The notes beneath the pieces were generated by a model, which searched no databases, was not told the origin of the DNA, and saw only the letters and a list, made by a program, of their open reading frames with translations. This document shows, one piece after another, positions 7,647-60,980 of a DNA stretch of 64,000 nucleotides. How positions within the stretch are numbered: position 1 is the stretch's first letter; every line of letters begins with the position of its first letter. The translations under genes were made by a program, and so were the position numbers. Source of the DNA: Bacteroidota bacterium. Lineage in GTDB: Bacteria; Bacteroidota; Bacteroidia; UKL13-3. The stretch is from NCBI GenBank assembly GCA_947477885.1, contig CANJUD010000002.1, positions 186,001-250,000 on the forward strand. The letters run 5' to 3'.

Positions 7647-8360
7647 ATGATTGAAAAAGCTCTAATACAAAAAATAGTTGAATACTTTGATAAATTTATA
7701 TTTGAAAACCATATCAATGCGTCTCTAAACACTCATTCTAAGCTCAAATCATATAATATCAATCCAATAGTTGTCAAATACCTTTCAAAAGTATTAGAAG
7801 ACAACTATACTCCTGAAGGTGTTGCTAAGGCACTTTTTTATCCAAGGGTATTGGGAACTTCAATTAACACATCTTTTGGAACACGTATACAAAATATGTT
7901 TGTAGAATTGGAAATTGCTGAAGGTTCTATAATTAAAGGAATGGATATCGAGTTTTTTGATAAAATTGACAAAAGAAAAAAATGGTGTCAGTTAAAGTCT
8001 GGGCCAAATACTATAAACTCTGAAGATGTTCAACCGCTTATTAAAAAATTTACAACTACTATTCAATTGGCTAGGACAAATAGAGCTCTAAAAGGAATTA
8101 GTAATACAGATTTTATTGTAGGAGTGCTATATGGAGAAAAAACTGAACTCAGCATGCATTATAAAGAAATCGACAAAATTCATCCAGTAATAATTGGCAA
8201 GGATTTTTGGCATAGAATCACTGGATTTCCGAATTTCTATAATGGTTTAGTAACCGAATTACAAATTTGCATAAACAATCTTGACACAAAAGATTTGATA
8301 AATAAAGGTTGTGAAGAATTAGCTAATGAAATAAGAAAATCTAAACTATTTAAATTTTAA
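7647..8360 (+). CDS. Type II restriction endonuclease, PD-(D/E)XK type (PmeII/EcoO109I-like)
   Basis: 237-residue protein next to a C5-cytosine methyltransferase, so read as the cutting half of a type II restriction-modification system. The active-site pattern is a variant PD-(D/E)XK: GMDIEF supplies the acidic residue, and WCQLKSGPN supplies Q-x-K about 15 residues later. The upstream YPRVLGTSINTSFGTR block and the later FIVGVLYG and IGKDFWHRI strands recall the EcoO109I and PmeII families; I assign the family from memory of these motifs and not from a search. The recognition site is unknown. Its 3' end overlaps the convergent methyltransferase by 15 bp. A perfect promoter lies upstream. Confidence 0.8.
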   Translation: MIEKALIQKIVEYFDKFIFENHINASLNTHSKLKSYNINPIVVKYLSKVLEDNYTPEGVAKALFYPRVLGTSINTSFGTRIQNMFVELEIAEGSIIKGMDIEFFDKIDKRKKWCQLKSGPNTINSEDVQPLIKKFTTTIQLARTNRALKGISNTDFIVGVLYGEKTELSMHYKEIDKIHPVIIGKDFWHRITGFPNFYNGLVTELQICINNLDTKDLINKGCEELANEIRKSKLFKF

Positions 8361-9584
8361 TTTAGAATAATATTGGTTAAGAAATTTCACAATAGAAAAA
8401 CCAACTTCTTTACCTAAATTTACTGGAACTGCATTTCCAATTTGTTTGTATTGTTGAGCCATTGAACCTTCAAATTCCCAATCATCTGGAAAAGTTTGAA
8501 TGCGTGCATATTCACGAACAGTAAATGGGCGGGTTTCCTCAGGGTGACATCTTTCTGTCTGTTTTTGAGCAGGACTGCATGTCAATGTTAAACAGGGTTC
8601 ATCCCAACCTATCCTTCTTGCAATGCCCGTTTTCCCACCACCCAAATAAAAACTTCCGCCCATAAATTCTTTTTGAATTTTTAATGGTAAATCACGCCAA
8701 TATCCCTTTTGAGGAACCATGTCTAAAACTACCTTCTTACTCTGGGGATATGTTGCTCCTTCTGATTTTGGGACATTGCTATTATATAATTCACCTTTTT
8801 TTAGTGCATCCTTCAAGTTATAAATTTTCTTATATGGTTTTGGATATTCATAAATTGCATTTATATCTTTTCTAATACCGACTAAAATCAATCTTTCTCT
8901 TTTTTGTGGTACTTTATAATTTATAGCTTTTAAAACCTGTACAGGGACAACATTGTATCCAATCTCATCTAAAATTGAAATCATCCCTTGCAATGTTTTT
9001 CCATTTTCGTGACTCAATAAACCACGAACATTTTCACCAATACAAATTGGAGGATTTACTTCTTTTACAACTCTTGCAAACTCATAAAAAAGTGTTCCTC
9101 TAGCATCTGCTAATCCTAGTTTTTTTCCTGCATAACTAAAAGCCTGACAAGGGAAACCACCTGTTACAACATCTACCTTATTATAATATTTCTTAAAATC
9201 AAATGCCTTAATATCTCCTTCTAAAACTTCCCAGTTTGGACGATTTTTCCTTAATGTTTCACAAGCCCATTTATCTATTTCATTCAATGCTACACATTTC
9301 AATCCAGCTTTTTCCATTCCAACTGCTAAACCACCTGCTCCAGCAAATAATTCTAGTACTTTATATTCATTATCGGGTTCTACGTAATTTGATTCGATCT
9401 CTTGTATATTATTAGATAGAAAGTCCGCAAAAAGTGTTTCTACCTCTTTTCTTCTATAAACTCTATAATTGCTTATAGGTTCTCTTACAGCTAATAATTT
9501 ACCCTCTCTATCCCACCTTCTAAGGGTTTCTTTACTTTTACCAATCAATTCAGATGCTTCTGTGAGCGTTAAATATTTTTTCAT
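8346..9584 (-). CDS. DNA (cytosine-5-)-methyltransferase with N-terminal HTH domain
   Basis: 412 residues. Residues 1-55 form a MerR/excisionase-type helix-turn-helix (LTLTEASELIGKSKETLRRW). The C5 methyltransferase follows (from about 75): motif I ELFAGAGG, motif IV GGFPCQAFS with the catalytic Cys, motif VI GENVRGL, motif VIII PQKRERLILVG, and motif X near the C-terminus (QIGNAVPVNLG). It protects host DNA from the converging endonuclease. The fused HTH suggests that the enzyme also binds its own control region: three TAACC half-sites lie over the promoter and start codon (9584-9615). The 3' ends of the two genes overlap, so antisense transcription may add another layer of control. Confidence 0.96.
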   Translation of the reverse strand: MKKYLTLTEASELIGKSKETLRRWDREGKLLAVREPISNYRVYRRKEVETLFADFLSNNIQEIESNYVEPDNEYKVLELFAGAGGLAVGMEKAGLKCVALNEIDKWACETLRKNRPNWEVLEGDIKAFDFKKYYNKVDVVTGGFPCQAFSYAGKKLGLADARGTLFYEFARVVKEVNPPICIGENVRGLLSHENGKTLQGMISILDEIGYNVVPVQVLKAINYKVPQKRERLILVGIRKDINAIYEYPKPYKKIYNLKDALKKGELYNSNVPKSEGATYPQSKKVVLDMVPQKGYWRDLPLKIQKEFMGGSFYLGGGKTGIARRIGWDEPCLTLTCSPAQKQTERCHPEETRPFTVREYARIQTFPDDWEFEGSMAQQYKQIGNAVPVNLGKEVGFSIVKFLNQYYSKLKFK

Positions 9585-18352: not shown

Positions 18353-19084
18353 TTACTTTTTGGCTTTAGGTGCGGCTTTCTTAGGAGCAGCTTTTTTAGC
18401 GGCTGGTTTAGCGGCTTTCTTGGCAGCTGGTTTAGCAGCTTTCTTTGGAGCAGCTTTCTTAGCAGCAGCTTTCTTTGGAGCAGCTTTCTTAGCAGCGGCT
18501 TTCTTAGGAGCGGCTTTCTTAGGAGCGGCTTTTTTAGGAGCGGCTTTTTTAGCTGCGGCCTTTTTTGGTGCAGCCTTTTTAGCTGCGGCCTTTTTTGGTG
18601 CAGCCTTTTTAGCAGCGGCTTTTGGTGCTGCTTTTTTACCTGCTTTTTTCTTAGCTACTTTTTTAGGAGCAACTTTTGGAGCAGCTGGTTTTGCAGAAAC
18701 ACCTTTAATTCCATAATGGAATTTAGGGCCGATTTTTTCGCGATGCAACATTCCTTTTTTGGTCATCTCAACAATTTTAATGTTTAGATAAGCTTTCACT
18801 TTTGCAAGTGTTTTTCCAGGACTTACCATCTTAGTTGCAATTTCATGAGAGGTCATCATACGACCTTCTTTTTTAATTGCAGCCAACATTTTGTCAGCAA
18901 AAGTTACACGGTTAGATGCTTTTTTAGGAGCAGCTTTACCAGATCCTTTTGGACGACCAGAGGTTTTTGCAGCCTTTGCTTTAGCAGCAGGTTTTGCAAT
19001 TGGAGCTTTTGCTTTAGCAGCTTTTGCTTTAGCAGGTGCGGCGGCTTTTTTTGCCTTCGCAGGTTTTGTTACTTTTTTTGCCAT
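18353..19084 (-). CDS. Histone H1-like DNA-binding protein with AT-hook and winged-helix core
   Basis: 243-residue basic protein in three parts. Residues 1-40 are a Lys/Ala/Pro-rich arm; 42-50 (TSGRPKGSGK) is an AT-hook-like core; 58-128 is a compact alpha/beta segment with the outline of a winged helix (MMTSHEIATKMV ... LNIKIVEMTKKGML ... KFHYGIKG). The tail, 130-243, is a long run of AAKKAAPKK-type repeats like the C-terminal tail of histone H1. It probably coats or condenses the nucleoid. I place the start at the ATG at 19084 (MAKKVTKPAK); an ATG at 19147 would add 21 hydrophobic residues that do not suit a nucleoid protein. Confidence 0.9.
   Translation of the reverse strand: MAKKVTKPAKAKKAAAPAKAKAAKAKAPIAKPAAKAKAAKTSGRPKGSGKAAPKKASNRVTFADKMLAAIKKEGRMMTSHEIATKMVSPGKTLAKVKAYLNIKIVEMTKKGMLHREKIGPKFHYGIKGVSAKPAAPKVAPKKVAKKKAGKKAAPKAAAKKAAPKKAAAKKAAPKKAAAKKAAPKKAAPKKAAPKKAAAKKAAPKKAAAKKAAPKKAAKPAAKKAAKPAAKKAAPKKAAPKAKK
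18360..18680. repeat. Short tandem repeats encoding the Lys/Ala tail
   Basis: Degenerate 9- to 15-bp units (GCAGCTTTCTTAG-type) repeat about twenty times and encode the AAPKKAA tail of the histone-like protein. Such arrays are prone to length change by slippage. Confidence 0.85.
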
Positions 19085-20037
19085 TGTATTATAATAATTA
19101 ATTTTAATTAGTGATGCAAAAATCACTATGATATTTGTTACTGCCAAATTTTTTCTTTATATACTTTTTCACAATTGTTAACAAGTGTACAATTTATATA
19201 ACACTCTCATCTCCAAAAACCCTTTTATTATGTTACATTAAATCCTCAAAATAAAAAATATATACTCCTAGAGTACTGATTTAACAGCATTCTTAATAAA
19301 AAATACAATTTTGTAAAAGGCCACATTTATATATCACAATACTTTTTATTTTTTAGAGTTTATGCACATCGAAAAAAAAAATAAGAAACTTAGGGATTGT
19401 TTGAAATCAAAATTGATTGACTCTAAATTAATCAAATCATGATATACTCAGTTTAAAACAAATTGCCTATACATTTAACTACAATTCATATCCCACAAGG
19501 GATTGCATGTATAACAGAGATTTTTTGATTTTTAAAAAAATAATAAAATATCACATTATATCAATCACATCTATACTTCAAATTTATTTTTAGTCCTTTT
19601 GATTGCATTTGAATTTTTATCCATTTTATATTTAACGACAACTTTGATTGAATTAAAATTGGAACCATTGTCAATTTATTATTCCGATACTTATTCAAAA
19701 AATAGATAGGTATTTGTGAAATATGAAAAAAGATTTTATCAGCATGATATATATAGCCTACTTTTTATTCTGAGAAATTGTATATATATAGTTTTTAAAT
19801 GCCTGCTCCATTAAATATATACTGCAGTAGCCGAAATAAATAAATTTCAAAGCAAAATAACTATACTATATGTGTTAGCAACAATTGGCGTGTATTTACT
19901 TTTGATGTGTGCGGCATGATATTAGGTTTTCTAGCCGCTAAATATTTCACAAAGCTTTTTAGTCGAAATTCTTCCTATGCCTGTTTGTAGGGCAAAAAAA
20001 ATTGGTTACTTTTGCGGCACGTTATTAAAAAAAACCA
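19085..20037. other. 0.95-kb AT-rich gene-free region
   Basis: No supportable gene on either strand; stop codons are dense and there is no recognisable RNA gene. It holds the upstream region of the histone-like gene on the left and a canonical promoter at 19984-20014 on the right. Long A/T tracts and many TATATA words dominate. Confidence 0.7.
19984..20014 (+). promoter_or_regulatory. Canonical promoter of the Leu dehydrogenase gene
   Basis: TTTG (19984-19987), 19-bp spacer, TACTTTTG (20007-20014): exact match to the Bacteroidota consensus. The predicted start is near 20021, 17 bases before the ATG. Confidence 0.75.
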
Positions 20038-27917: not shown

Positions 27918-28142
27918 TTAAAAAAAATACTCCACAACAAGCTTTTTTGTAATAGAATTTCTATTTTTCAAGTCTACCAATTGTATAGAATATATCCCTG
28001 ATGAACATTGGCTAACATCAACCCCTATCTGCAATTTTGAACTTGAAAGAACAATTATATTTTTGCCTACAGAATTAAATATCTTTACTATATTTGATTG
28101 TGATAAAAATATATTCCGAAAAAAAAATCTAATCGAATCCAA
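27918..28142 (-). pseudogene. Orphan T9SS sorting-domain fragment
   Basis: About 74 residues that match the second half of a T9SS type A sorting domain (VKIFNSVGKNIIVL ... IGVDVSQCSSGIYSIQLVDL ... TKKLVVE) closely resembling the tail of the protein at 33947-34831. The YPNPS entry motif is degraded to LFYLDS, there is an in-frame stop just upstream (TAA) and no signal peptide or cargo domain. The only initiator is a TTG. It is read as the remnant of a lost secreted protein downstream of the thioredoxin-like gene. Confidence 0.7.
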
Positions 28143-28163
28143 ATAGAATAAGTTTTATACAAT

Positions 28164-28796
28164 TTATTTCCTGTAGAATATTCGACACCCCACCGAGCTT
28201 GTTACCGATTTAGCAACCTTCTTCCCTTGCAAAAGCTCTTCAACGGCATCTGAAATAAATGGTGTTGCTATTTCTGGATCTTGTCCATTATCATCAATTG
28301 CTCCGCTATATTTTATTTTCCAAACTTCGTTTTCTTTCCAAATTATAAATGCATGAGGTGTGTGATCGGCCTTAAAATCCTTAACAACCGTTTGCATATT
28401 ATCATACAAATAGGGAAAATTATATTTTTCAGCCAATGCGATTTCCTGCATTTTTTGGAAATTTTCATCCTCATATATTGCAGTATCCATCGAATTAATG
28501 GCAAGAAGCGGAACACCCAAACTATCGAACATTTTACTGAGTTTATTTAAACGCTTAGTATATAGTTTTGCAAACGGACAATGGTTGCACGTAAAAATTA
28601 TGATGAACCCTTTTGCATTGGGATAATCACTTAATGAAATGCTACTGCCATCGACATTTTTTAATCGAAAATCTGAAATGGTCTTTTCAATTATATTATT
28701 CCTATCATACTTGAAACCCGCAACTGTAAAACCTGCCAAGCCAATAGTTGCAAAGGTTAATGCGAATAAAGTTAAAGCTCTAGCTCTATTCATCAT
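28164..28796 (-). CDS. Thioredoxin-fold protein (AhpC/TSA-like), membrane-anchored
   Basis: 210 residues. An N-terminal hydrophobic segment (about 9-27) would export or anchor it; the rest is a thioredoxin fold. The active-site region is FTCNHCPFAK: two cysteines in C-x2-C spacing, as in peroxiredoxin-like and thiol-disulfide proteins of the DUF-type 'TlpA-like' group. A cis-Pro TPHAFII follows. Its ATG overlaps the stop of the multicopper oxidase gene (ATGA, 28793-28796), implying translational coupling; reduction of copper-protein cysteines or methionines in the envelope is inferred from that context. Confidence 0.88.
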   Translation of the reverse strand: MMNRARALTLFALTFATIGLAGFTVAGFKYDRNNIIEKTISDFRLKNVDGSSISLSDYPNAKGFIIIFTCNHCPFAKLYTKRLNKLSKMFDSLGVPLLAINSMDTAIYEDENFQKMQEIALAEKYNFPYLYDNMQTVVKDFKADHTPHAFIIWKENEVWKIKYSGAIDDNGQDPEIATPFISDAVEELLQGKKVAKSVTSSVGCRIFYRK

Positions 28797-30505
28797 TCTA
28801 CAATAAATTTCTTAGTTATTGTGCCTTTAGTTTTCTCATCAGTTAATTGTAAAAAATACAATCCCGGAGAAAGGTTACTGATGTCAATACCATTTTGCAA
28901 TTGAGGTCGTGGAAGCATATAAATAGTTCTACCAAAAGAATTATTAATTTTTATATAATAAGCTTGCATTAATGGGCTGCCAAATTTAATATATATTTTT
29001 TCAGAACTTGGATTTGGATAAATAGAAAAATCATTTAATTCTTCCTCAATTTTATTAATGCCAGTTGTTGAACTCTTAACAACAAATTGCCCCATCATAC
29101 CGCCATCTTCGTGATTAGAAAAATGACAATGATACATAAAAGGGTGAATGGAATCAGAATAATCATCGAACTTGGCAACAAAAGTAGCAGATGTATTTCT
29201 TGGTAGATACAAAACATCTTTCCAACCAGCTTCGTAGTTACCAACCGAGCTTCCACTTCTGGAAACAATTTTAAATTCGACATCATGAATATGAAAAGTG
29301 TGGCCAAAAACATTGTTATTCGTGATCGTCCACTTTTCAATGGTATTAAGATTTACAGTATTATTAATTTGTGTTAAATCAAACGGTTGGGAATCTAAAG
29401 AAAACGGCTTACTGTTCGGACCGGGATTTCCATCAGTTACTTTAATGGTTCTACTCACAGTTGCATCGGCTGCTGTCCAGTATGTATTATTTGCCAAAGT
29501 TGATGGAATTGATTTTATCGCATTATTTGTTTGAGCAACCACATTAATGTGTAATAAATTAAAAGTTGTATTATTAAGTAAGCTACCAAATTCACCAGTG
29601 GTGCCAGGTTCACCGCCAGGGAATCCAATAGCGAATCCAGAATTATAAGCTTCCAAATCTAGGCTAGAACCAACAGCATCATTACTAAGGTCTACTAAAA
29701 TTTCAATACGCTCGCCAACAGCGAGTATTACTTTTGTCACTGCTACAGGAGTATTCACCAAACCACCATCAGTAGCTATAATATAAAATGTTCTGTTGTC
29801 ACTGAATCCCAAATTATATGCTCTTTCCATTTCTGCATTTAATATACGCAACCTCACAAACTGTTTTGGTAAATCTGTTTGAGCATTAGGAGTTCCATTG
29901 GTCAGCATATAATCGCCATAAGAGCATTTGGTGGTAACAAATGCGTTTGAAGCATTATATCTTCTGCTAGTTAATACCAAGGGGATATCATCAACGCCAT
30001 AGCTCCTAGGTAAAGCTAAAGATGATTCATGCTGATCTCTCACTATAATAAACCCGCCAAGTCCTTTAGTAAGTTGCTCTTGCGTCATGGTGTGAAGATG
30101 CGGGTGATACCAATATGTCGAAGCATTATTAGTCACTTTCCAGTAGGGTTGCCAAATTGTTCCTGGAGGAATTACTTGATGCGGTCCACCATCCATCACT
30201 GCCGGCAAGTGCATGCCATGCCAATGCAAAGTCGTGGAATCATTCAATTTATTTTTCACTTTCATATATACTGTATCCTCCTTATTAAAGAACAAAGTAG
30301 GACCCCAAAATTTACTATTGTTAACACCTGCTGATATGGTTTGATTGCCTGTTTTAAATTGCGCGAAAGTGTCTTTTAGCGTAAGCTCGAAATGTGTTCC
30401 TGACAAGGTATCGGGAATCCACAAGGTATTATATTGTGCATTTGCATTGTTTGATGAAAATGCTATAAAAACAATTATAGCTAAGTTGAGAATATTTTTT
30501 TTCAT
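28793..30505 (-). CDS. Multicopper oxidase exported by T9SS
   Basis: 570-residue secreted laccase/CueO-like oxidase that oxidises a substrate (Cu(I), phenols or metals) at a type 1 copper and reduces O2 at a trinuclear site. All ligand motifs are present: HWHGMH (94-99), YWYHPHLH (131-138), GHTFHIHD (about 400) and HPFMYHCHFSNHEDGGMM (about 450), with Met as axial ligand. Signal peptide 1-23; T9SS sorting domain in the last 75 residues (FSIYPNPSSEKI ... GLYFLQL). A surface-anchored oxidase is unusual beside periplasmic forms. It lies within the MbnP/MbnH/YHYH locus. Confidence 0.95.
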   Translation of the reverse strand: MKKNILNLAIIVFIAFSSNNANAQYNTLWIPDTLSGTHFELTLKDTFAQFKTGNQTISAGVNNSKFWGPTLFFNKEDTVYMKVKNKLNDSTTLHWHGMHLPAVMDGGPHQVIPPGTIWQPYWKVTNNASTYWYHPHLHTMTQEQLTKGLGGFIIVRDQHESSLALPRSYGVDDIPLVLTSRRYNASNAFVTTKCSYGDYMLTNGTPNAQTDLPKQFVRLRILNAEMERAYNLGFSDNRTFYIIATDGGLVNTPVAVTKVILAVGERIEILVDLSNDAVGSSLDLEAYNSGFAIGFPGGEPGTTGEFGSLLNNTTFNLLHINVVAQTNNAIKSIPSTLANNTYWTAADATVSRTIKVTDGNPGPNSKPFSLDSQPFDLTQINNTVNLNTIEKWTITNNNVFGHTFHIHDVEFKIVSRSGSSVGNYEAGWKDVLYLPRNTSATFVAKFDDYSDSIHPFMYHCHFSNHEDGGMMGQFVVKSSTTGINKIEEELNDFSIYPNPSSEKIYIKFGSPLMQAYYIKINNSFGRTIYMLPRPQLQNGIDISNLSPGLYFLQLTDEKTKGTITKKFIVE

Positions 30506-30560
30506 GATTTTATATTTTGAATTACGTTCTATTAAATATTTTGCAAATGTATTACGGAAA

Positions 30561-31118
30561 TTATAGCAAGCGTGTAACAGTCCAATAAAGAGCTACACTG
30601 CCTATTATACAGGATATCGGATAAACTACTCTTTCTTTGTACCATGATTTATTTCTAAACCATTTACTAATTAAAAAATAAGCCAATATAATAATTGAAA
30701 TCTGACCCATTTCTACGCCCATATTAAATGAAATTAATGCAGCCCAAAAAGCAGTGTCAGGTATTCCAATCTCAATTAAAGCATTTGCGAAGCCCATCCC
30801 ATGAATTAATCCAAAAACAAAAATGATAAGGAGACGCCATGCATTTACTTTACTATGTATAATATTTTCGACTGAGGTAAATAATATTGACAAAGCAATT
30901 AAAGGTTCTACAATACTAGCCTTGGGCATCATATAGCCAGCCGCCGCAAGTGCTAAAGTAAGGCTATGTGCTAGAGTAAAAACCGAACATTGTATGATAA
31001 CAGATTTGAGATTTGAATTTAGAAAAAAAATGCTAAGAATAAAAAGTATATGATCGAAACCCAAAGGTAGAACATGGCAAAATCCTATTTCGAAATATTT
31101 GAAGACAGTATCAATCAC
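30561..31118 (-). CDS. HupE/UreJ_2-family integral membrane protein
   Basis: 185 residues with about six transmembrane helices. The family's polar motifs are visible: GFDHILFIL near residue 20, FTLAHSLTLAL near 48, EPLIALSI near 71, FGLIHGMGFA near 101 and FNMGVEMGQ near 130. Members of this group are thought to move Ni, Co or other metal ions, but the subgroup found in Bacteroidota and proteobacterial gene clusters with cytochromes is uncharacterised. The conserved His and Glu residues are suited to transition-metal binding. Placement between a DUF1566 protein and the multicopper oxidase supports a role in copper or metal handling (inference). Confidence 0.85.
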   Translation of the reverse strand: MIDTVFKYFEIGFCHVLPLGFDHILFILSIFFLNSNLKSVIIQCSVFTLAHSLTLALAAAGYMMPKASIVEPLIALSILFTSVENIIHSKVNAWRLLIIFVFGLIHGMGFANALIEIGIPDTAFWAALISFNMGVEMGQISIIILAYFLISKWFRNKSWYKERVVYPISCIIGSVALYWTVTRLL

Positions 31119-31128
31119 GAATCCTCTA

Positions 31129-32325
31129 TTAATTTTTTACAATCTTAATTGCACCACTTTTTCCTTGCTCTCGAAGAAAATAAACACCACACTTCAAGTT
31201 TGAAAAATCTTGTTCTTTTATATTATTTCCTGAATATATCAACTGCCCCAAGCCATCATAAAGTGCAACCACCTCTTGATTATTTACAACATATATATAA
31301 CTACTAAATGGATTTGGATAAACTTTCAGGTTTGAGATAATTGTATCATAACTATTAAGCGACGTATTAATGCTATTGCCTCTCACGCATAATAAATAAT
31401 TTGAATTTGTTTTTGTATCATAAGTTGTAATGCCGAATTGCGTATTCCAGTACCAAGCTTTTGTGGTTTGATTGGGTAGTGTGGTTGACGACCAATAATG
31501 TTTAACACCAATGCTACCAAAAAAAGCAGTATTTACTGATGGGTTAACTGTAGTTTCATCATTGATAGATTGCAGTTCTTTAATATTGGGAACTCTCCAA
31601 TCGTTATCACCTGCAAAGCTTAATGACTCAGCATTGTTTAATGCTTGCTCCCAAGTAAATATAGATGTGCTAGGCGTTTTCTGCCAAACCAAATTGGTAA
31701 GATTATCTGTAATGGTTCCATCCCCATTATCAGTATAATGATTGGGAATTGTTGCTGGAGCATTATTATCTCTAACCGCACGCACATGAAATTTCTTTGA
31801 TCCGCCCGCACTAATAGTTTCTGCTTTGGGGTGATTACCAATTCCACCTCCAGCATTGGTTGCCCATATTTTAGTGGCGTCATTAACTTGCGATTCACTG
31901 GTCCACCAATATTCTGCAGCCGTCTTTGTAAATACTTTTGTATCAATTGCAGGATTAACATTTTGCATATTTAATATACTAAATGCTTCTTGTGCATCAG
32001 GAAGCCGCCAATTAGAATAGCCCCCCAAAGTTAAAGTGTCACAATATATTATTGCATTTTCTATAGTCATTTCTCCACCATCTGTTTGCTGCCAAGTCAA
32101 TCCTGTTATGGTATCGGTGACCGTTCCATTTCCATGTAATATAAAATATGGGGAATTTACTAGATAATCATGATCTTCGCCAAAAGTATTAGTATAACTC
32201 GTACTTTCACCCGTATCGGGCAAACGCAGCATAGTTTTTTTTACACTTTGTGCAGTAATTTGATAAACCTGAAATACACAAAAGAATCCTATGATTTTAT
32301 AATACATATCTGGCTTATTGAACAA
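31129..32325 (-). CDS. DUF1566 (Lcl_C) double-domain T9SS protein
   Basis: 398-residue secreted protein: signal peptide (about 1-25), two consecutive DUF1566/Lcl_C domains (about 65-185 and 195-325) each with the signature TGLTWQ/TNLVWQ, WRLPDAQE/WRVPNIKEL, and YWWTSES/YWSSTT, then a T9SS sorting domain (KVYPNPFSSYIYV ... GVYFLRE). The fold resembles C-type lectin/FGE-like lipoprotein-binding domains; ligand unknown. It overlaps the upstream YHYH gene by 11 bp and leaves 10 bp to the HupE-type gene, so it belongs to the same transcript. Confidence 0.88.
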   Translation of the reverse strand: MFNKPDMYYKIIGFFCVFQVYQITAQSVKKTMLRLPDTGESTSYTNTFGEDHDYLVNSPYFILHGNGTVTDTITGLTWQQTDGGEMTIENAIIYCDTLTLGGYSNWRLPDAQEAFSILNMQNVNPAIDTKVFTKTAAEYWWTSESQVNDATKIWATNAGGGIGNHPKAETISAGGSKKFHVRAVRDNNAPATIPNHYTDNGDGTITDNLTNLVWQKTPSTSIFTWEQALNNAESLSFAGDNDWRVPNIKELQSINDETTVNPSVNTAFFGSIGVKHYWSSTTLPNQTTKAWYWNTQFGITTYDTKTNSNYLLCVRGNSINTSLNSYDTIISNLKVYPNPFSSYIYVVNNQEVVALYDGLGQLIYSGNNIKEQDFSNLKCGVYFLREQGKSGAIKIVKN

Positions 32326-33928
32326 TGAGCTTTTTATAAACCTGCGATGTCGACAATTGTATCTTTACCAGATAAAGTCCCTTTGCCAAATTTCTGGTAT
32401 CGATAGTGTTTCTGTAACTGCTGACATTATAAACCAATTGCCCATCCAAATCGTATATACATATTCCTTGAATTTCCTTTTCTGAAACATGATTACCTAA
32501 TTGAATATATAATAAATTGGTACTTGGATTGGGATATAATACTATTGAATTATCGACAAAAGAAATATCCTTCATACCCACAGGAACCTTGCATTGTTTG
32601 AAACCATTATAATTGGAGGTAGTTTTTCCCGATGGTGTGTAGAAATTAAAGGTATAAGACCCGCTTGTGTTCCAGCTATATTCAACCGAATCAGTGTTCC
32701 CATTTAAAGTATAAGTTAAAGTGTATCCATTATTACTTGCATTTGGTTTGCATTTCTTAATCAATGCACCTTTTAGTGGCTTGCCAGCTGGACGAATTGG
32801 AGAAGCGGCTGCTTGTGGAATAATTTGATGCGTGGCATCTTCGTTTACTACGCCAACCATTTTACCTATCATATAAGGTGCTGAGGTGGTTCCATGATAA
32901 TGATAAACCCCATTAAATATATGACCATGATTGCCGTCAAGTGCAAGCATATTGGAACCATCAGGCTCTTTGATTCCATATACCGCAAATCCATCCAAGC
33001 CAAAAGCAATAGGCACAGTAGGCAATGTATAATTATACAAATGTAGCGGTGCAATATGATAGTGATAGTCATCAGCTCTACCGCAATGACCACCATAAGT
33101 ATCAAGCTGTCCATCTGTATAGGAATCGACACCCGTATTGGTATGTACATTAAAAATAGGAATACCGTTAACAGCAATCGCTATGGCCCCTCTGGTAAAG
33201 TGTATATTGTCCACTGCAATAGGATTACTTGAAATAGTTGGATTTAAAGGAATTGACCATGCATTACTTCCTGTGTAACATTGAGGTATGGGGAACTGCT
33301 GCTGCCATCCAGAATCCGAAATCCCTACCATCATATCATGTGTGGTCGGAATTCCTTTCGATTCTATATAGAAATAAGTTTGATCCCAACGAGTATATAC
33401 TATGGGTTTAAAGGGAACAAATGCAGAATCTATATATATTGGATCGGTAGTGGTACCAGCTATTTTCATTATTTTGGCAGTAAAACTATATAATGTTGTA
33501 ATCACCCCCACTAAGAACATAGGCAATAAATATTTAAACTTTTTACTATCGGCGAATATATAAATGGACGTTCCTAATAATGCCAATACAATAAATAACA
33601 ATAAAAACTTCTCCTTGCCCGAACTTGCCCCTGCTGAAGAAACTGGCAAGGCTTCTATTTTGCGGTTGAGTTCAACCACACGTTCTTGCTTTTGTAATAC
33701 GTATTTTTGATCACTAATACTCAATGAATGAAGCGAAAAATGAAGTACTTTGTTCCTTGCATCTTCTATATATACTTCGTTATTCTTTAATATATAAAAC
33801 GACCCTGATACCACTCGATGCTCCTTCTCAATATTCCATTGTTTCAAACTCAAATGTTCATAACTTAAATTATGAGCGAAGGCCTGCAAAGCACAACATA
33901 TAAATAGAAGAATTATTGTTTTTTTCAT
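32315..33928 (-). CDS. YHYH-domain protein with internal transmembrane pair and T9SS tail
   Basis: 537 residues. Signal peptide 1-18; region 20-95 beta-rich then a heptad-like stretch (QKQERVVELNRKIEAL); two strong hydrophobic helices at about 107-126 and 132-152; the YHYH domain at about 160-440 with GGHCGRADDYHYHI, GLDGFAVYG and FNGVYHYHGT; and a T9SS sorting domain (LYPNPSTNLLYI ... GLYLVKIQ). The YHYH family is widespread but of unknown function; its His/Asp-rich centre looks suited to metals. Internal membrane helices in a T9SS cargo are odd. Downstream overlap of 11 bp with the DUF1566 gene. Confidence 0.9.
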   Translation of the reverse strand: MKKTIILLFICCALQAFAHNLSYEHLSLKQWNIEKEHRVVSGSFYILKNNEVYIEDARNKVLHFSLHSLSISDQKYVLQKQERVVELNRKIEALPVSSAGASSGKEKFLLLFIVLALLGTSIYIFADSKKFKYLLPMFLVGVITTLYSFTAKIMKIAGTTTDPIYIDSAFVPFKPIVYTRWDQTYFYIESKGIPTTHDMMVGISDSGWQQQFPIPQCYTGSNAWSIPLNPTISSNPIAVDNIHFTRGAIAIAVNGIPIFNVHTNTGVDSYTDGQLDTYGGHCGRADDYHYHIAPLHLYNYTLPTVPIAFGLDGFAVYGIKEPDGSNMLALDGNHGHIFNGVYHYHGTTSAPYMIGKMVGVVNEDATHQIIPQAAASPIRPAGKPLKGALIKKCKPNASNNGYTLTYTLNGNTDSVEYSWNTSGSYTFNFYTPSGKTTSNYNGFKQCKVPVGMKDISFVDNSIVLYPNPSTNLLYIQLGNHVSEKEIQGICIYDLDGQLVYNVSSYRNTIDTRNLAKGLYLVKIQLSTSQVYKKLIVQ

Positions 33929-33946
33929 GCTATATTTTATTAGCTT

Positions 33947-34831
33947 TTATTCTATCACAAACTTTTTAGTATTTGCTTGCTTTGTTCTATTATCAATTAA
34001 TTGTATAAAATAAATTCCTGATGCAAATTGGCTAATATCAATACCAATATTGCTTTGAATGCCTGAATATATATAAATAGTTTTACCTCCCGAATTTAAA
34101 ATTCTAATACTATTGGATTGAGATAAAGAATGGACTAACGTGAAATTTAAAATATTTTTTGCTGGATTTGGATATAAAAGAAAATCCGGCGAATCATCTT
34201 TTTGTGACGAAATTCCAGATGCTATTTTTGTAACAAAAGCGATATCATCTACCAATAATATGGAACCCAATTTTCTTTGCTGTGGATCACTGCTTGCAAG
34301 CACAATGGCAACAGAATCGGGTGTGGCACCGCTTGAATAATTTAGTGGAAAACTGAAACGTGTATATGAACTTGCCGCAGTCCCTACATATATAGTATTA
34401 GAAATAATATCTCTTTGATTTGTTGAAGTGTTCCATTTTGTTAACGTAACTGCAATAGCAAAATCATCTTGTCCGATGGGTGCATATTTATACCATCCCG
34501 TAAAACTATCAGGACGGGCGGTGGACGGATAACCATCAATTCCTTTTACACCAGGCCCCATGCCGGGTTGTCCTGTTACACAAATTCCGGGAATACTATC
34601 TGTATTTTGTGTTTGCGGATTGGTGAATATATCCGATTTTAAATTGATAGTATAAGTGCCTGAATGGGCATCCGTACTTTTAGTCACTGCCGGGCTACCT
34701 GCCCATTGGTCGGGCATTTCGAAGGGGCCTTGACTATTCCAAGTTTCAAATCCAGGATTGGGAATTTGTTGCGATTTTGCGATAAAAGATATAGCAAAAA
34801 TAATTACGGAGCTTAATAACAGTTTTCTCAT
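33947..34831 (-). CDS. T9SS-exported beta-sandwich protein (PCMD/CBM-like)
   Basis: 294-residue secreted protein: signal peptide (1-20), then a single jelly-roll-like domain (about 22-205) that opens IPNPGFETWNS and has the PDQWAGSPAVTKSTDAHSGTY pattern of carbohydrate-binding modules and of the putative carbohydrate metabolism domain found in Bacteroidota. It ends in a T9SS sorting domain (LLYPNPAKNILNF ... GIYFIQLID). It lies between two YHYH genes with gaps of 18 and 10 bp, so it is part of the same operon; it may anchor the others to glycan (inference). Confidence 0.85.
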   Translation of the reverse strand: MRKLLLSSVIIFAISFIAKSQQIPNPGFETWNSQGPFEMPDQWAGSPAVTKSTDAHSGTYTINLKSDIFTNPQTQNTDSIPGICVTGQPGMGPGVKGIDGYPSTARPDSFTGWYKYAPIGQDDFAIAVTLTKWNTSTNQRDIISNTIYVGTAASSYTRFSFPLNYSSGATPDSVAIVLASSDPQQRKLGSILLVDDIAFVTKIASGISSQKDDSPDFLLYPNPAKNILNFTLVHSLSQSNSIRILNSGGKTIYIYSGIQSNIGIDISQFASGIYFIQLIDNRTKQANTKKFVIE

Positions 34832-34841
34832 ATTTTAGTTT

Positions 34842-36203
34842 TTATTTTATTACGGTTATTTTTTTAGTAATGTTTGAATGTGCATTTGATATCTTGACTA
34901 TATAATCACCTTGATATAATGTTTGGGTATCGAAATAAGCAATCGTACTTCCTTGATATAAAATAGTTTTTTGAATGAGTTTCCCAGCAATATCATACAA
35001 TGCAATATCTATATTTTCTTTGGTAATATCATTCATTTGAATTGCTACCAAATCATTGGTGGGATTGGGGAAAATGCTGATATCTATTTCCTTAATTTGT
35101 TTATCAGAAACACCTGCATTTGTTGGTGAATAGGTTGTTACATTTTCAGTAATTGAAGTAACTTTGGCTACTACCTTTGGACCATAAAATGTTGGACCTA
35201 CTACATAAGGATATGCAGAATTCCAATTAGAATCAACCGTTGCAAAATAACAATATATACCATTGGGGTATTCAGGAGTTACACAAAATCTTCCATTATG
35301 ATCATCCAGATAATCAGAAGCTGTTGTAGTATTATATTGATAGTCTTCTCTGAAATATCCAAGCGGGTAAGTCGCATTCACATCAGGACCTGCAGTCACT
35401 GTTGAGCCATCAGAATAAGTAGTTCTTGTTGTTATATTTCTCAAACTAAAACTCGATTTCATTCTCACAATTCCTCCACTTCCATCTACATTTTTATAAG
35501 CATAAGCACCATATATAGGGAAACCATCATAAGCAAAGCCAATCAACGGAGAATGCTTGGCACTATCAATAACATATAATCCATCGGCATCATATAAATT
35601 GCATATTGTTGATATTACTTTCAAATCCAATTTAAACGCACTTGGATTTTGATGGTGGTGATAGTTACCCATAGCTGGATGACCTTTTGAACAATCGAAT
35701 CCTTTTTTCTCAGCAGGAATTGCATCCCGGTTCCACACATTGTCACCCATACATTGTGGCTTTATCGGCCCGCCGCACAAAGCGTTGGTGGAACTTTTCC
35801 AAGATACGCCATCTCTATAATCAAATAATGCAACACCGTTAATAAATATACCAATATTCCCTCCAGTGGTATTGGTTGGCTTGCCCATATTTTTTGTTGG
35901 ATTTATTGGAAACTTAAATATCGCCTTCTGATCGCTTGCAAAAGACGGATTCCCATCTAAGAAAGGACCTGTGATATAGGCAGGAATGCCATGCGTAGTA
36001 ATGTAGACGGATGAGTCAGAGTATTGCACCATTTGCACATTGGCAGAAACATTATCATTAATAGATGTCGAATTTCCACTTACATAATGGCGGCCCATAA
36101 TGTTTGTGGTGTTTCGCAACCATGAAGTGATTGCTGGATTTGTTTGTGCAATACATATTATAGATAATAATGTAAATGCAGATGTAGTAATAATTTTTTT
36201 CAT
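34842..36203 (-). CDS. YHYH-domain T9SS protein
   Basis: 453 residues: signal peptide (1-19), YHYH domain (about 40-340) and T9SS sorting domain (ISIFPNPTNDLVAI ... GDYIVKISN). Hallmarks are CSKGHPAMGNYHHHQNPSAF, GFAYDGFPIYGAY and, near the end, LDDHNGRFCVTPEYPNGIYCYF, which is the fuller 'YHYH' type of planctomycetes and flavobacteria. Clustered His/Asp/Cys residues suggest metal binding; enzyme activity unknown. The upstream gap of 162 bp to the peroxidase gene contains a palindromic repeat, so transcription from the mbnP promoter may be attenuated here. Confidence 0.92.
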   Translation of the reverse strand: MKKIITTSAFTLLSIICIAQTNPAITSWLRNTTNIMGRHYVSGNSTSINDNVSANVQMVQYSDSSVYITTHGIPAYITGPFLDGNPSFASDQKAIFKFPINPTKNMGKPTNTTGGNIGIFINGVALFDYRDGVSWKSSTNALCGGPIKPQCMGDNVWNRDAIPAEKKGFDCSKGHPAMGNYHHHQNPSAFKLDLKVISTICNLYDADGLYVIDSAKHSPLIGFAYDGFPIYGAYAYKNVDGSGGIVRMKSSFSLRNITTRTTYSDGSTVTAGPDVNATYPLGYFREDYQYNTTTASDYLDDHNGRFCVTPEYPNGIYCYFATVDSNWNSAYPYVVGPTFYGPKVVAKVTSITENVTTYSPTNAGVSDKQIKEIDISIFPNPTNDLVAIQMNDITKENIDIALYDIAGKLIQKTILYQGSTIAYFDTQTLYQGDYIVKISNAHSNITKKITVIK

Positions 36204-36296
36204 TGAATAGATTTTGTAATGGTTAGTGGTTTATGTTAATGTGATTGTGTTTACAAATAACATTACGAGAGATTACTTCAAAGGGTGGGGCAGTGT

Positions 36297-36378
36297 GGGA
36301 TTCAGGATTCGGGATTCAGGGCCATACGGCAATATTCCCGAATCCCGAATCCTGAATCCCGGCCGCTAATTCCTGAAT
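36297..36378. repeat. GGGATTCAGGATTC palindrome supplying the 3' end of the peroxidase gene
   Basis: Left arm 36297-36321 and right arm 36337-36360 are complementary over at least 21 bp. A further ATTCCTGAATCC unit (36369-36380) overlaps the last codons of the peroxidase gene: its C-terminal GFRN and stop codon are repeat sequence. Confidence 0.8.
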
Positions 36379-37373
36379 CCATACTTTGGATTAAATAAAA
36401 ATTCTTTGTCACTTAAAGTTAATAGAAATGCAATTATATCAGCTTTTTCATTAGAAGTCAAAACAATTTTTTTTTGCAATTGTTTTGAAAGCGTTTTGCT
36501 CTGCTGAATTCCTGATGCATAATGATTCATCACTTCTGATAATTTTTTAAATCTACCATCATGCATATAGGGATAAGAAAATTCTATATTTCGCAAGGTG
36601 GGCACTTTAAATAATAAAGAGTCTTTTGCATCTTTTGTTATATTCATCCTGCCGTAATCGTTTAATGTTTTTTCAACTGGCAAACCATCGTTTTCAAATT
36701 CCAAATTGGTGAACAAAGGCTGCTTGTGGCAAGAGCCACAATGCTTTTGGAATAATTCAAATCCATTTTTTTCTTGTACAGTAAATTCAATTTGCTTTCG
36801 CATTACACTATCATACTTCGAGTTTGCACTTATTAGCGTTAACATAAATTGTGAGATTGCTTTTAAAGTATGTTCGCCCGTTATTATACTATCGCCAAAT
36901 GCGATTTGATATAGTTTCGGATATAATATAGTTTGCTGCAAACTTGCCACTACCCTACCAATTTTATTATCCATTTCCAAAGGATTGCTCATAGGGGCCA
37001 ATGCTTGCATATCGAGATGATTGATTGCCCCATCCCACATAAAAGATTTATGCCAAGCCAAATTCATTAATGCAGGCGAATTCCGTGTCCCAATTTTATC
37101 TTCTATACCATGACTCAAAGCATGATCAACATGCGTGAATGCGGTAAACTGCGAGTGACAACTTGCACAGGATATTTTATTATCTCTTGATAAAATAGGA
37201 TCATAAAATAATTTCCTGCCGAGCTCAATTTTATTTTCACTAAGTATGTTTTTAGTAAAATCATAATGCGGCTTGGGCCAGTTTTTCGGGACAATAAATA
37301 TATATTCATTTTTAATACTGAACGAAGCAATAAACAAACCTATTAAAACTATGATAATACTTTTGTTACTCAT
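36366..37373 (-). CDS. Dihaem cytochrome c peroxidase / MauG-family (MbnH-like)
   Basis: 335 residues: N-terminal signal/anchor (about 6-20), then a dihaem CcpA/MauG domain. Two haem motifs are present, CASCH (69-73) and CGSCH (about 213), with the conserved YPYMHDGRFKKL near 280. It overlaps the MbnP gene by 4 bp (ATGA-type), the arrangement known for methanobactin-locus mbnPH pairs, where MbnH oxidises a Trp of MbnP to kynurenine. I therefore infer the same partner chemistry rather than H2O2 detoxification. The last residues derive from an intergenic repeat. Confidence 0.92.
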   Translation of the reverse strand: MSNKSIIIVLIGLFIASFSIKNEYIFIVPKNWPKPHYDFTKNILSENKIELGRKLFYDPILSRDNKISCASCHSQFTAFTHVDHALSHGIEDKIGTRNSPALMNLAWHKSFMWDGAINHLDMQALAPMSNPLEMDNKIGRVVASLQQTILYPKLYQIAFGDSIITGEHTLKAISQFMLTLISANSKYDSVMRKQIEFTVQEKNGFELFQKHCGSCHKQPLFTNLEFENDGLPVEKTLNDYGRMNITKDAKDSLLFKVPTLRNIEFSYPYMHDGRFKKLSEVMNHYASGIQQSKTLSKQLQKKIVLTSNEKADIIAFLLTLSDKEFLFNPKYGFRN

Positions 37374-38056
37374 TGTTTCTGAATACTGAATATTTTTGAG
37401 AACTTTTCAGAAAGCAAAACAGCTTCCTTGCCTGGGGACATGATTTGATTTTGCTCAGATAAATCAATAGCTGCAAGCATTTTTTCTATATCAATTAAAA
37501 TATCAATATTTTTATTTTCTGACACATTGAGTATAATAGTTTGCAAAGCATTATCCGCATTTTGATAACCACCCAAATGAAACTGAAATTCATTATTCCT
37601 GGTTTTGCATAGTTTGCTTTTTCCTTCCAATTTCAAATTGATATATCCACTTTGCCAAGTCCAATACATTCCTTTGGTGGGATCCAAATCGCCGCCCATA
37701 GCCCCTGAAACATTGGTAATACTATCAATTCCGAGATTGAATTTAATTTTTGTAAACTTTAAATCCGAAGGCGAGTTTACCAATATATACAATGATTTTT
37801 CATCCGATGCATCGAGCAAATGATAACTGTTTGCTTCTTTCCAAACTATACTATCTTTATTCAAAAACTCAACACCTGATATGTATAGTTTTAATTGCGA
37901 GAAATAGATACTGTCCTTCGTATAACATGAATCATCTAAATGCAAAGCAGATTTGCCGAATGTGGGATGGAATAAAATTTTGTCCGTAGATTGGGCATGA
38001 AGATATCCATTGCAAAATATTGCCACAAACAAAGCAAATAGGATTTTAAGTTTCAT
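37370..38056 (-). CDS. MbnP-family protein (copper-binding partner of MbnH)
   Basis: 228-residue secreted beta-sandwich protein of the MbnP family (signal peptide 1-22). Family marks: FHPTFGKSALHLDD, the GIDSITNVSGAM-GGDLDP block, GMYWTWQSGYINLKLEG with W132 and W134, and FQFHLGGY with H160. Two cysteines (C44, C150) could form a disulfide. In characterised MbnP/CorA proteins one Trp is turned into kynurenine by the partner dihaem enzyme and a copper site forms; which Trp corresponds here is not settled by eye. First gene of the locus, behind a perfect promoter. Confidence 0.93.
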   Translation of the reverse strand: MKLKILFALFVAIFCNGYLHAQSTDKILFHPTFGKSALHLDDSCYTKDSIYFSQLKLYISGVEFLNKDSIVWKEANSYHLLDASDEKSLYILVNSPSDLKFTKIKFNLGIDSITNVSGAMGGDLDPTKGMYWTWQSGYINLKLEGKSKLCKTRNNEFQFHLGGYQNADNALQTIILNVSENKNIDILIDIEKMLAAIDLSEQNQIMSPGKEAVLLSEKFSKIFSIQKQ

Positions 38057-38144: not shown

Positions 38145-38298
38145 AATATTTCGTCCCTACGGGACTTTGCTATTTACTCATACCTTTTTTCTACCGATAT
38201 CACGTCCCTATGGGACTTTAAAAATAGTCCCATAGGGACGTGATATCGGTAGCATCAATAAAACCCGGCCGCAAAAAGTCCCGTAGGGACGAAATATT
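38145..38298. repeat. Nested perfect inverted repeat (GTCCCTA-GGGAC element)
   Basis: Outer arms of 22 bp (38145-38166 and 38277-38298) and inner arms of 27 bp (38191-38217 and 38226-38252, 8-base loop) are all perfectly complementary. Each arm carries GTCCCTA(C/T)GGGAC, itself palindromic, giving four copies. No gene inside. The transcript would fold into a long double hairpin. Confidence 0.95.
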
Positions 38299-43979: not shown

Positions 43980-46088
43980 ATGCAGGAAGAGCTGATTGTA
44001 CAAGGAATGCATTGCCAGGGTTGTGCCGATACCGTGCGTAAGGAGCTAGAGAATAAAGGCCTAGAGCATGTGTATGTAGATTTTGTGAGTGCCAAAGCAA
44101 AGTTTCAAAATTCAAAAAATATTCCATTAAAAACTATTATACCTTCTATACAAAAATTGGGATATCGTGCAAGTATTATAGAACAAAAAACAAAGTGGTA
44201 TGATAAAGTAGAAAATCTGTTTCTACTTACACTTCCTTTCACTATTATTTTATTATCTCACATGTTTGTGAGTATACATTTATTGCATAATCCTTGGTTT
44301 CAATTAATCATTACTTTGCCAGTATTGGCAGCAGGGTTATGGACTTATGGCAAATCAGCATGGGCTAGTGTAAAAGGCTTGTCGCCCAATATGAATGTAT
44401 TAATTATGCTGGGGGCATTGGCATCTTTTATATATAGTTTGGTGGGATTGCTAATATACGATGGCGACCATCTTTATATATTCTTTGAAACAACTGCAAG
44501 TATTATATCTTTTATAATGCTTGGTTCTTATATAGAAAAAAAAGCAGTGGCACAAACTACCACAAACCTAGATTTATTAAAAGCAGGTGTTCCCTTTAAA
44601 GCTGTGAAATTATTATATGATTTACTAAGTGGTAAAGAAGAACAAATAGAAGTAGATGCCCGCCAAATAAAGAAAGGTGACAAACTAATGGTAGTTACAG
44701 GAAGTCAGATTCCCGCTGATGGCATTATAATAAATGGGGAAGCTATTATTGATGAAAGTTTGTTGACAGGTGAAAGCCCTGGGATGAAAAAAAATGTTGG
44801 CGATAAAGTAATTGGAGGAAGTTTGTTGACCGAGGGCTGGCTCAAAATTACAGCTACCAGTAATTTTAATGATAGCACGCTAAGTCGGATTGTATCAGAA
44901 GTGGAAAAAGCAAGTAGTCAAAAACCACAAATACAATTATTGGCAGATAGAATAAGTGCGATTTTTGTTCCTGCGGTTATTATTATATCTTTCTTAACTT
45001 TTTTAGTTAATCATTATATAATAGATATTGATTTAGGGCAAAGTTTGATGCGAGCAGTGGCAGTATTGGTTATATCATGCCCCTGTGCACTAGGTCTCGC
45101 TACGCCCCTTGCTGTTGTAGTAGGATTGGGCAGTGCTGCACGCAAAGGTATTATAGTAAAAGCAGGGTTGCATTTGGAAACTTTGGCTAAAGTTAATACA
45201 ATAGTCTTCGATAAAACTGGAACTTTAACTAGTGGAAAAATGAAAGTGAGTGATTTTAAAAGTTTTGATTTTAGTGAACGTGATGCCAAGAATTATATAC
45301 ATTATTTGGAGACCCATTCATCGCACCCAATTGCACAAACTATTTATAGAGACTATTATGATTGGAGACACCACAGCATCGCCTTCGACCATATAGAAGA
45401 AGTGAGTGGACAAGGTATAAAAGCCCTTGACCATTTTGGGAACAGATATACTTTGGGAAGTTTGGAGTTGAGCAAAAAACCTATCAAAGAACCTAAAATG
45501 AAATGGGATATATACTTAACCTTGAACGAAAATATTGTGGCAGCTTTTGACTTGGAGGAAGAACTGAAACCTGGGGCCAAAGAAATGACAATTACATTAA
45601 AACAAAAAGGTTTTGAAACTATTATATTAAGTGGCGATTCACAAAGTAAATGTGATAGAGTTGCTAAAGCACTAGGAATCGATAAAGTATATGCACGCAC
45701 CCTTCCCGAAAAGAAAGCTGATATTATAAAGAAACTCTCCAAAACCAAAACTGTGGCGATGATTGGTGATGGAATTAATGACACCATCGCAATGGCAAAA
45801 GCCCACATAGGCATAGCTGTAGGCGGAGCTGCAGACCTTGCCCGTGAGCATGCAAATATTGTGATATTAAAAAATGAACCCAATATAATAGTCGATGCGC
45901 TCACAGTTGGGCAAAATACTTATTATACAATCAAACAAAATCTATGGTGGGCACTGGCATATAATATTGTAGCAATTCCTTTAGCGGCTATGGGATATTT
46001 AAGTCCCCTACTCGCTGCATGGGGTATGGCTTTCAGCGATGTGGTGCTGGTATTAAATACCCTTTGGAAATTAGGAAGAAAGAAATAG
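43980..46088 (+). CDS. Copper-type heavy-metal P1B ATPase
   Basis: 702-residue metal-efflux ATPase in the inner membrane. N-terminal HMA domain with GMHCQGC (9-15), eight predicted transmembrane helices, actuator motif TGES (263-266), metal-site C367-P-C369 in helix 6, phosphorylation DKTGT (D411), HP motif SSHP and GDGINDT. CPC indicates Cu+/Ag+ transport. The last helix reads GMAFSDVVLVLN where Cu-ATPases usually have M-x-x-S-S, so one serine of the canonical Met-Ser-Ser site is Asp. It follows relA/spoT by 7 bp. Its link to the mbnP locus 6 kb away is functional inference only. Confidence 0.94.
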   Translation: MQEELIVQGMHCQGCADTVRKELENKGLEHVYVDFVSAKAKFQNSKNIPLKTIIPSIQKLGYRASIIEQKTKWYDKVENLFLLTLPFTIILLSHMFVSIHLLHNPWFQLIITLPVLAAGLWTYGKSAWASVKGLSPNMNVLIMLGALASFIYSLVGLLIYDGDHLYIFFETTASIISFIMLGSYIEKKAVAQTTTNLDLLKAGVPFKAVKLLYDLLSGKEEQIEVDARQIKKGDKLMVVTGSQIPADGIIINGEAIIDESLLTGESPGMKKNVGDKVIGGSLLTEGWLKITATSNFNDSTLSRIVSEVEKASSQKPQIQLLADRISAIFVPAVIIISFLTFLVNHYIIDIDLGQSLMRAVAVLVISCPCALGLATPLAVVVGLGSAARKGIIVKAGLHLETLAKVNTIVFDKTGTLTSGKMKVSDFKSFDFSERDAKNYIHYLETHSSHPIAQTIYRDYYDWRHHSIAFDHIEEVSGQGIKALDHFGNRYTLGSLELSKKPIKEPKMKWDIYLTLNENIVAAFDLEEELKPGAKEMTITLKQKGFETIILSGDSQSKCDRVAKALGIDKVYARTLPEKKADIIKKLSKTKTVAMIGDGINDTIAMAKAHIGIAVGGAADLAREHANIVILKNEPNIIVDALTVGQNTYYTIKQNLWWALAYNIVAIPLAAMGYLSPLLAAWGMAFSDVVLVLNTLWKLGRKK

Positions 46089-60341: not shown

Positions 60342-60350
60342 AAAATATCT

Positions 60351-60959: not shown

Positions 60960-60980
60960 AAGTTTAATTAAAATACACTT

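Follow-up and report, generated by a model that had tools for sequence, protein, structure and literature searches.

The chemistry of the MbnP and MbnH proteins (together MbnPH), as we describe it here, is in part general knowledge. In this pair, a tryptophan of MbnP is converted to kynurenine and a copper site is created (PMC3912023, PMC9426467). The pairs described in methanotrophs and other bacteria (TIGR04052/TIGR04039, GenProp0940; PMC3621798) are encoded by adjacent genes for an MbnP-domain protein and a dihaem MauG/MbnH-like enzyme. CorA/CorB and MopE/SACCP of methanotrophs also combine a kynurenine-involving copper site with a gene beside that of a dihaem peroxidase (PMC3912023). MbnPH pairs are widespread, and outside methanotrophs no physiological role has been assigned to them in the literature we read. 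Here we analyse a 64,000-nt stretch of DNA (the window) from a Bacteroidota bacterium (UKL13-3; assembly GCA_947477885.1, contig CANJUD010000002.1, positions 186,001–250,000, forward strand), in which an MbnP-MbnH pair is followed by a gene of the Pfam family YHYH, which we term YHYH-A. We propose that the window carries a modular copper-handling locus of the Bacteroidota envelope in which YHYH works with MbnP. This is on balance the probable reading of the locus, and its copper theme is well supported by genomic context.

The window's pair shares with the described MbnP/MbnH the adjacency of the two genes, the WxW motif, the conserved His, two CxxCH motifs and, by alignment, the MbnH-type Tyr. 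MbnP (37370..38056, minus strand; 228 aa) has a signal peptide without a lipobox and scores 152 bits against PF20243 (curated cut-off 27). W132 and W134 of its GMYWTW motif and H160 are 100% conserved among 57 YHYH-linked sequences, and H79 reaches 74%. The MbnP profile gave no match among PDB sequences. MbnH (36366..37373, minus strand; 335 aa) matches PF03150 (CCP_MauG) with 178 bits, and in the alignment its haem residues C69/C72/H73 (CASCH) and C212/C215/H216 (CGSCH) are invariant. W113 is 94% conserved, and the invariant Y285 aligns with the Tyr of the authentic MbnH 6E1C, which is also the best PDB match of the MbnH family profile, narrowly over classical cytochrome c peroxidases (184.5 vs 184.0 bits). 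The residues for kynurenine formation are present in the pair, and the module would most likely make a kynurenine-dependent copper site in MbnP. The locus differs from that of methanotrophs in its third partner, a YHYH protein exported by the type IX secretion system (T9SS), and none of the open reading frames (ORFs) read in the window was recognised as a methanobactin gene. CorA and MopE are themselves surface proteins, whereas here MbnP looks periplasmic and YHYH-A is the surface protein.

YHYH loci were sampled from the same order (L091–L150), from contigs of named genomes (L151–L230) and from an evenly drawn sample of the phylum (L319–L354). They were annotated by BLAST against the window's proteins and by scripted ORF calls; because neighbours were labelled by such simple scripts, the counts given for divergent neighbours are minimum values. 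When non-redundant YHYH-A loci with sufficient flanking sequence are considered, 90 of 108 have MbnPH nearby. YHYH-A (∼455 aa) is in most loci the gene immediately downstream of MbnP and MbnH. Of the 63 named loci that extend 3 kb or more upstream, 56 have MbnH within 6 kb. In the order and phylum samples, which are smaller but less biased than the named set, MbnP lies within 7.2 kb of 25 of the 45 YHYH-A hits (by hidden Markov model [HMM] coordinates alone) and MbnP/MbnH are linked to 8 of the 23 full-length YHYH hits (HMM coordinates), respectively. The MbnP-MbnH-YHYH-A arrangement recurs within one order (L091–L130) and is also present in named Bacteroidota and in a few metagenome-assembled genomes of Ignavibacteria/Kapaibacterium. 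At the level of whole genomes, MbnP occurs in 22/34 genomes with YHYH vs 56/262 without it (phylum sample of 296 genomes; odds ratio 6.7, p = 6e-7, not corrected for relatedness). The recurrence of YHYH-A beside MbnPH in dozens of genomes is far beyond chance.

Could these genes be neighbours merely by inheritance, as a matter of chance or lineage-wide synteny without joint function? The strongest statistics do come from one order and from query-like loci. On a tree of the 108 YHYH-A proteins, however, the MbnPH linkage state changed 11 times, which argues against frozen synteny, and 90 loci are linked despite these changes. Flanking genes vary among genera, while MbnP-MbnH-YHYH-A stays constant, and a second YHYH branch is tied to another copper gene, SCO (see below). 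Moreover, no YHYH gene was found near the lipoprotein-type MbnP paralogues of the same order (0/20 loci). We regard mere synteny as very improbable.

These paralogues set the YHYH-linked MbnPs apart from others of their order. In 85 of 88 YHYH-linked cases, MbnP is a non-lipoprotein by a simple lipobox pattern and carries GMYWTW; the other MbnPs of the order are mostly lipoprotein-like and commonly have GMFWTW. Ten of the 20 non-YHYH MbnP loci have a large secreted surface protein as a neighbour. The window's genome also encodes a second, lipoprotein-type MbnP-MbnH pair, whose neighbour is a giant surface protein containing GEVED and PKD domains. Among the lipoprotein-type loci (L355–L374, L231), others have a receptor of the TonB type or a small, barrel-like protein that begins with CDICGCG, both named by eye.

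YHYH-A (34842..36203, minus strand; 453 aa) is a core gene of the first of three modules distinguished below; it contains the motifs GHPAMGNYHHHQNP and HSPLIGFAYDGFPIYG and ends in a type A T9SS tail (PF18962, 48 bits). With 190 bits for YHYH-A and 39.5 bits for a second protein of the locus, YHYH-B, against a PF14240 cut-off of 25, both are members of the YHYH family. H175, H182, H184 and H217 of YHYH-A are 94–100% conserved with or without MbnPH linkage, and D170, H217, D226, D287, D300, N303 and R305 are invariant across the aligned bacterial and phage sequences. The bacterial sequences retain H175 and H182–H184, which are mostly absent from the phage ones. An AlphaFold (AF2) model of YHYH-A reached a predicted local distance difference test score (pLDDT) of 89.4 and a predicted template modelling score (pTM) of 0.89. 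Sequence and fold searches of the PDB gave no match (best E 2.9), so that no similarity to CorA/MopE or any other PDB entry was detected, and clear structural matches of the model were restricted to viral YHYH proteins. The YHYH proteins of cyanophage tails and jumbo phages belong to the same Pfam family (PF14240; PMC7824862). They differ in mostly lacking the His-rich YHYH segment and are described as tail- or baseplate-associated (PMC7824862), whereas the window's YHYH-A is encoded on a chromosome among copper genes and is a T9SS cargo.

YHYH-A directly follows MbnH in nearly all linked loci, and its aromatic residues W28, W135 and W157 are conserved. Both observations would suit a role of YHYH-A as a second MbnH substrate, in which an oxidised Trp or Tyr makes a metal site of its own. 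But W157 is also kept in most phage homologues, W28 is high in both linked and unlinked groups, and a divergent clade, some of whose members are linked, has Tyr in place of W135. YHYH also occurs without MbnPH. A second substrate is a distinctly improbable explanation of the linkage.

SCO proteins are copper chaperones, and it is to these that another YHYH branch is connected. Short YHYH lipoproteins (∼260 aa) of other Bacteroidota have the motifs GHP...YHYH...DGFPVYG...YHGH...YPNGIYHYH in common with YHYH-B. In 11 of the 12 loci examined, a SCO1/SenC homologue lies on the same strand, 369–1375 bp from the short YHYH gene, usually with one small lipoprotein gene in between; six of these SCO neighbours were confirmed by Pfam. 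The trio of genes for a YHYH lipoprotein, a small lipoprotein (MORN_2-like where tested) and SCO1/SenC recurs in these Bacteroidota (L335–L343, L345, L354). The window's locus differs from these loci in that the SCO domain is absent from its nine proteins, and its redoxin (28164–28796) is AhpC/TSA- or ResA-like. Three YHYH branches are tied to copper genes. The presence of YHYH branches beside both MbnPH and SCO suggests that the whole family probably handles copper. The initial annotation had made its reading depend on such linkage recurring outside this genome; it does recur, to MbnP/MbnH (90/108), to SCO1/SenC (11/12) and, more rarely, to a multicopper oxidase.

The other neighbours of YHYH genes are more variable. 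Of the 82 YHYH-A loci with sufficient flank, 13 carry the multicopper oxidase and 12 the redoxin; a T9SS sulfatase occurs in 10, YHYH-B in 6, a PCMD-like protein in 2 and HupE in one. In 19 YHYH-B loci, an Lcl_C protein is found in 17, a purple-acid-phosphatase-like protein (PAP1/PAP2) in 11–12 and HupE in 6. The frequent T9SS sulfatase (SULF, 10/82 YHYH-A loci) or metallophosphatase-type neighbours (PAP1/PAP2, 11–12/19 YHYH-B loci) speak for the main rival explanation, the zinc-hydrolase reading (PMC7824862), in which YHYH proteins are surface hydrolases dependent on Zn or another metal. The locus would then be a nutrient-scavenging module of sulfatase, purple-acid-phosphatase-like, Lcl_C and YHYH proteins, with the copper proteins merely co-regulated. 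The universally conserved D170, H217, D226, D287 and D300 would suit a hydrolase, and a metal-dependent hydrolase has been predicted for YHYH (PMC7824862). However, the commonest YHYH neighbours, MbnPH and SCO, are copper proteins rather than hydrolases, and most YHYH-A loci, like most short-YHYH/SCO loci examined, have neither a sulfatase nor a phosphatase. We consider the hydrolase reading unlikely, while giving it more weight than any other alternative.

Several points weigh against a copper role of the locus and of YHYH. The window's pair falls under the NCBI equivalog cut-offs of the MbnP and MbnH families, with 35 bits for MbnP against TIGR04052 (cut-off 140) and 211 bits for MbnH against TIGR04039 (cut-off 363); we therefore refer to the former as an MbnP-domain protein and not as a TIGR04052 equivalog. 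The named loci form a set ordered by similarity to the window's YHYH-A, with a bias to close relatives. MbnP is lacking in 12 of the 34 genomes with YHYH, so the pairing is not obligatory. Phage tail homologues are without most of the YHYH histidines. Modification of YHYH-A by MbnH was considered and rejected: no Trp clearly tracks MbnPH linkage, and there is thus no sign of it. To our knowledge, metal has been measured in no YHYH protein. The only earlier prediction we found is that of a Zn-dependent (zinc-binding) hydrolase (PMC7824862).

In the proposed copper-handling locus, the periplasmic dihaem enzyme MbnH would oxidise one Trp of the WxW in MbnP to kynurenine and so create a copper site, as the conserved residues suggest. 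The T9SS, whose translocon protein SprA is encoded in the window's genome (2461 bits), would take YHYH-A, encoded directly downstream, to the cell surface. There the His-rich and probably metal-binding YHYH-A would cooperate with copper-loaded MbnP and may receive copper from it or feed copper to it. YHYH-B, the Lcl_C protein and HupE constitute a second YHYH module, and the T9SS-exported oxidase with the redoxin a third, probably using or oxidising the same copper. We infer YHYH-A to be a metal-binding surface partner of MbnP from the gene context of three YHYH branches and from the conserved histidines; the presumed copper binding by YHYH, the direction of copper flow and the functions suggested for HupE and the redoxin are likewise inferences. 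A broader proposal, which we put forward tentatively and with less than even confidence, is that YHYH is a new copper-protein family with a fold not represented in the PDB, acting in the Bacteroidota envelope as a general chaperone or store of copper or as a cuproenzyme. Equally tentatively, one branch would then be a T9SS-exported third member of the MbnPH system and another a partner of SCO. If true, this would add a surface copper-handling route in Bacteroidota and likely a new metalloprotein fold. For the Pfam family YHYH we found no solved relative and one speculative prediction. The regular placement of YHYH downstream of MbnPH, and of a sister branch next to SCO, gives both MbnPH and YHYH a testable function. 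Our literature searches, which did not cover YHYH plus SCO, yielded no paper linking YHYH to MbnP, and the word YHYH was absent from the best 12 of 1,417 YHYH/copper matches listed.

Related loci also point to possible regulators, another difference from the MbnP/MbnH pairs described before. An extracytoplasmic function (ECF) σ factor is encoded upstream of MbnP in 26 of the 51 loci with enough upstream sequence, and in 24 of these 26 a small protein with one transmembrane segment lies between the two. It resembles sensors of the Spy/CpxP/CnrX type, with an E value of 0.01 reached by 5/22 sequences for Metal_resist and by 2/22 for LTXXQ. A comparable pair of ECF σ factor and small protein is found ahead of YHYH-B in L349 and ahead of the short YHYH gene in L354, where the small protein was recognised by inspection. 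The position of the ECF σ factor and its Spy/CpxP/Metal_resist-type partner before MbnP, and in a few cases before YHYH-B, leans toward control by metal or envelope stress in the relatives. No such regulator is encoded among the window's nine genes. Control of the locus by a distant ECF/Metal_resist pair was considered and rejected, since the window's genome contains no Metal_resist match that would indicate a homologue of the Spy/CpxP-like small protein.

Spy/CpxP-like regulators can be general envelope-stress sensors. Together with the dihaem peroxidase fold and the AhpC/TSA-type redoxin in the locus, this would be in line with an envelope defence against peroxide or other oxidants, in which MbnH uses up peroxide, the redoxin acts as a peroxide reductant and MbnP and YHYH are sacrificial or structural. 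Such a defence would not account for the SCO linkage of other YHYH proteins, and the redoxin is present in only 12/82 YHYH-A loci. In addition, MbnH has kept the MbnH-type Tyr and MbnP the WxW and His. We judge this explanation improbable.

The nine genes of the locus (28164–38056, minus strand) are intact, and an ORF check found all of them real, as the initial annotation had it. In Pfam terms, their order is MbnP, CCP_MauG, YHYH, PCMD-like, YHYH, Lcl_C, HupE_UreJ_2, multicopper oxidase and redoxin. Exactly five proteins, the number previously given, exceed the cut-off of 27 bits for the T9SS tail PF18962 (47.9, 51.2, 55.5, 34.2 and 48.3 bits). The intergenic gaps, in the order of transcription, are –4 (the MbnP/MbnH overlap), 162, 10, 18, –11, 10, 55 and –4 bp; the earlier range of –11 to 163 bp was right at its lower end and one base too high at its upper end. 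The locus had also been taken to begin at 27918, where no gene ends: 27919 to ∼28130 (minus strand) is an orphan T9SS-tail remnant, a pseudogene fragment without start codon whose translation ends in SSGIYSIQLVDLKNRNSITKKLVVEYFF, and the intact genes begin at 28164. All nine genes claimed for a single locus are present, but they are a composite of separately conserved modules and not a single conserved nine-gene operon: the genes outside the core are optional, and the window joins MbnP-MbnH-YHYH-A, YHYH-B-Lcl_C-HupE and oxidase-redoxin modules. An inverted repeat with 24-nt arms and a 16-nt loop (36297..36360, no strand assigned) separates MbnH from YHYH-A and is possibly an attenuator/terminator or an interspersed repeat.

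YHYH-A is followed by an accessory, seldom conserved PCMD-like T9SS protein (33947..34831, minus strand; 294 aa), which scores 23.5 bits against PF13201, under the cut-off of 28, and 51 bits against PF18962. YHYH-B (32315..33928, minus strand; 537 aa; PF14240 39.5 bits, PF18962 55 bits) consists of a signal peptide, an SHD1-like domain (a weak match, in 5/10 relatives), two hydrophobic stretches, the YHYH domain and the T9SS tail. In the alignment, its YHYH domain has two HxH pairs and an NHGH. The two hydrophobic stretches preceding the YHYH domain are conserved and probably transmembrane; a membrane-spanning T9SS cargo would be unusual. An AlphaFold model of YHYH-B was poor (pLDDT 44.5, 10 sequences) and was discarded. 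The next gene (31129..32325, minus strand) encodes a 398-aa protein with two Lcl_C domains (PF07603, 181 bits) and a T9SS tail. It is followed by a HupE/UreJ_2-like membrane protein (30561..31118, minus strand; 185 aa, GTG start), in which the HupE_UreJ_2 domain is present (PF13795, 146 bits vs 24.5). Found in 6/19 YHYH-B vs 1/82 YHYH-A loci, HupE is part of the second module; at the level of its family, the domain may point to a metal transporter.

The third module is formed by a CueO/FtsP-type multicopper oxidase (28793..30505, minus strand; 570 aa; PF07732/PF07731; HWHGMH, WYHPHLH, HTFHIH, HCHFSNHEDGGMM) and the redoxin, a 210-aa AhpC-TSA (ResA-like) protein with FTCNHCPFAK (28164..28796, minus strand; PF00578, 64 bits). 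As in CueO/CopA-type oxidases, ligands of all four copper sites are present (T1/T2/T3: HWH, HPHLH, HTFHIH, HCH...H...M), and they are invariant in 14 sequences. The window's oxidase differs from these enzymes in its T9SS tail, which suggests export to the surface, and in its score of 352 bits against NCBIfam CueO, under the equivalog cut-off of 525. C70 and C73 (CxxC) of the redoxin are invariant in 13 sequences. Oxidase and redoxin each occur in about 15% of YHYH-A loci. Of the surface copper system with YHYH partners put forward in the initial annotation, the copper theme holds through the conserved linkages, while a metal channel formed by HupE and a reductant role of the thioredoxin-fold protein are weaker suggestions.

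Outside the locus, a probable copper exporter, a P-type ATPase whose HMA domain has GMHCQGC, is encoded on the opposite strand ∼6 kb from mbnP (43980–46088, plus strand). Between tRNA-Met and mbnP (38145–38298) lie nested perfect inverted repeats with 27- and 24-nt arms that include four GTCCCTRYGGGAC palindromes. A role of these palindromes as a metal operator was rejected because the genome holds 23 copies, spread over about a dozen sites, which indicates an interspersed repeat. Elsewhere in the window, a cytosine-5 DNA methyltransferase whose N-terminal segment is MerR-like (7647–9584) stands beside a 237-aa ORF that, by eye, may encode its restriction enzyme. A histone H1-like Lys/Ala-rich protein with long AKKAAP repeats (18353–19147) and a flavin-reductase-like gene flanked by two photolyase/cryptochrome-like genes (59250–62522) were likewise recognised by eye.

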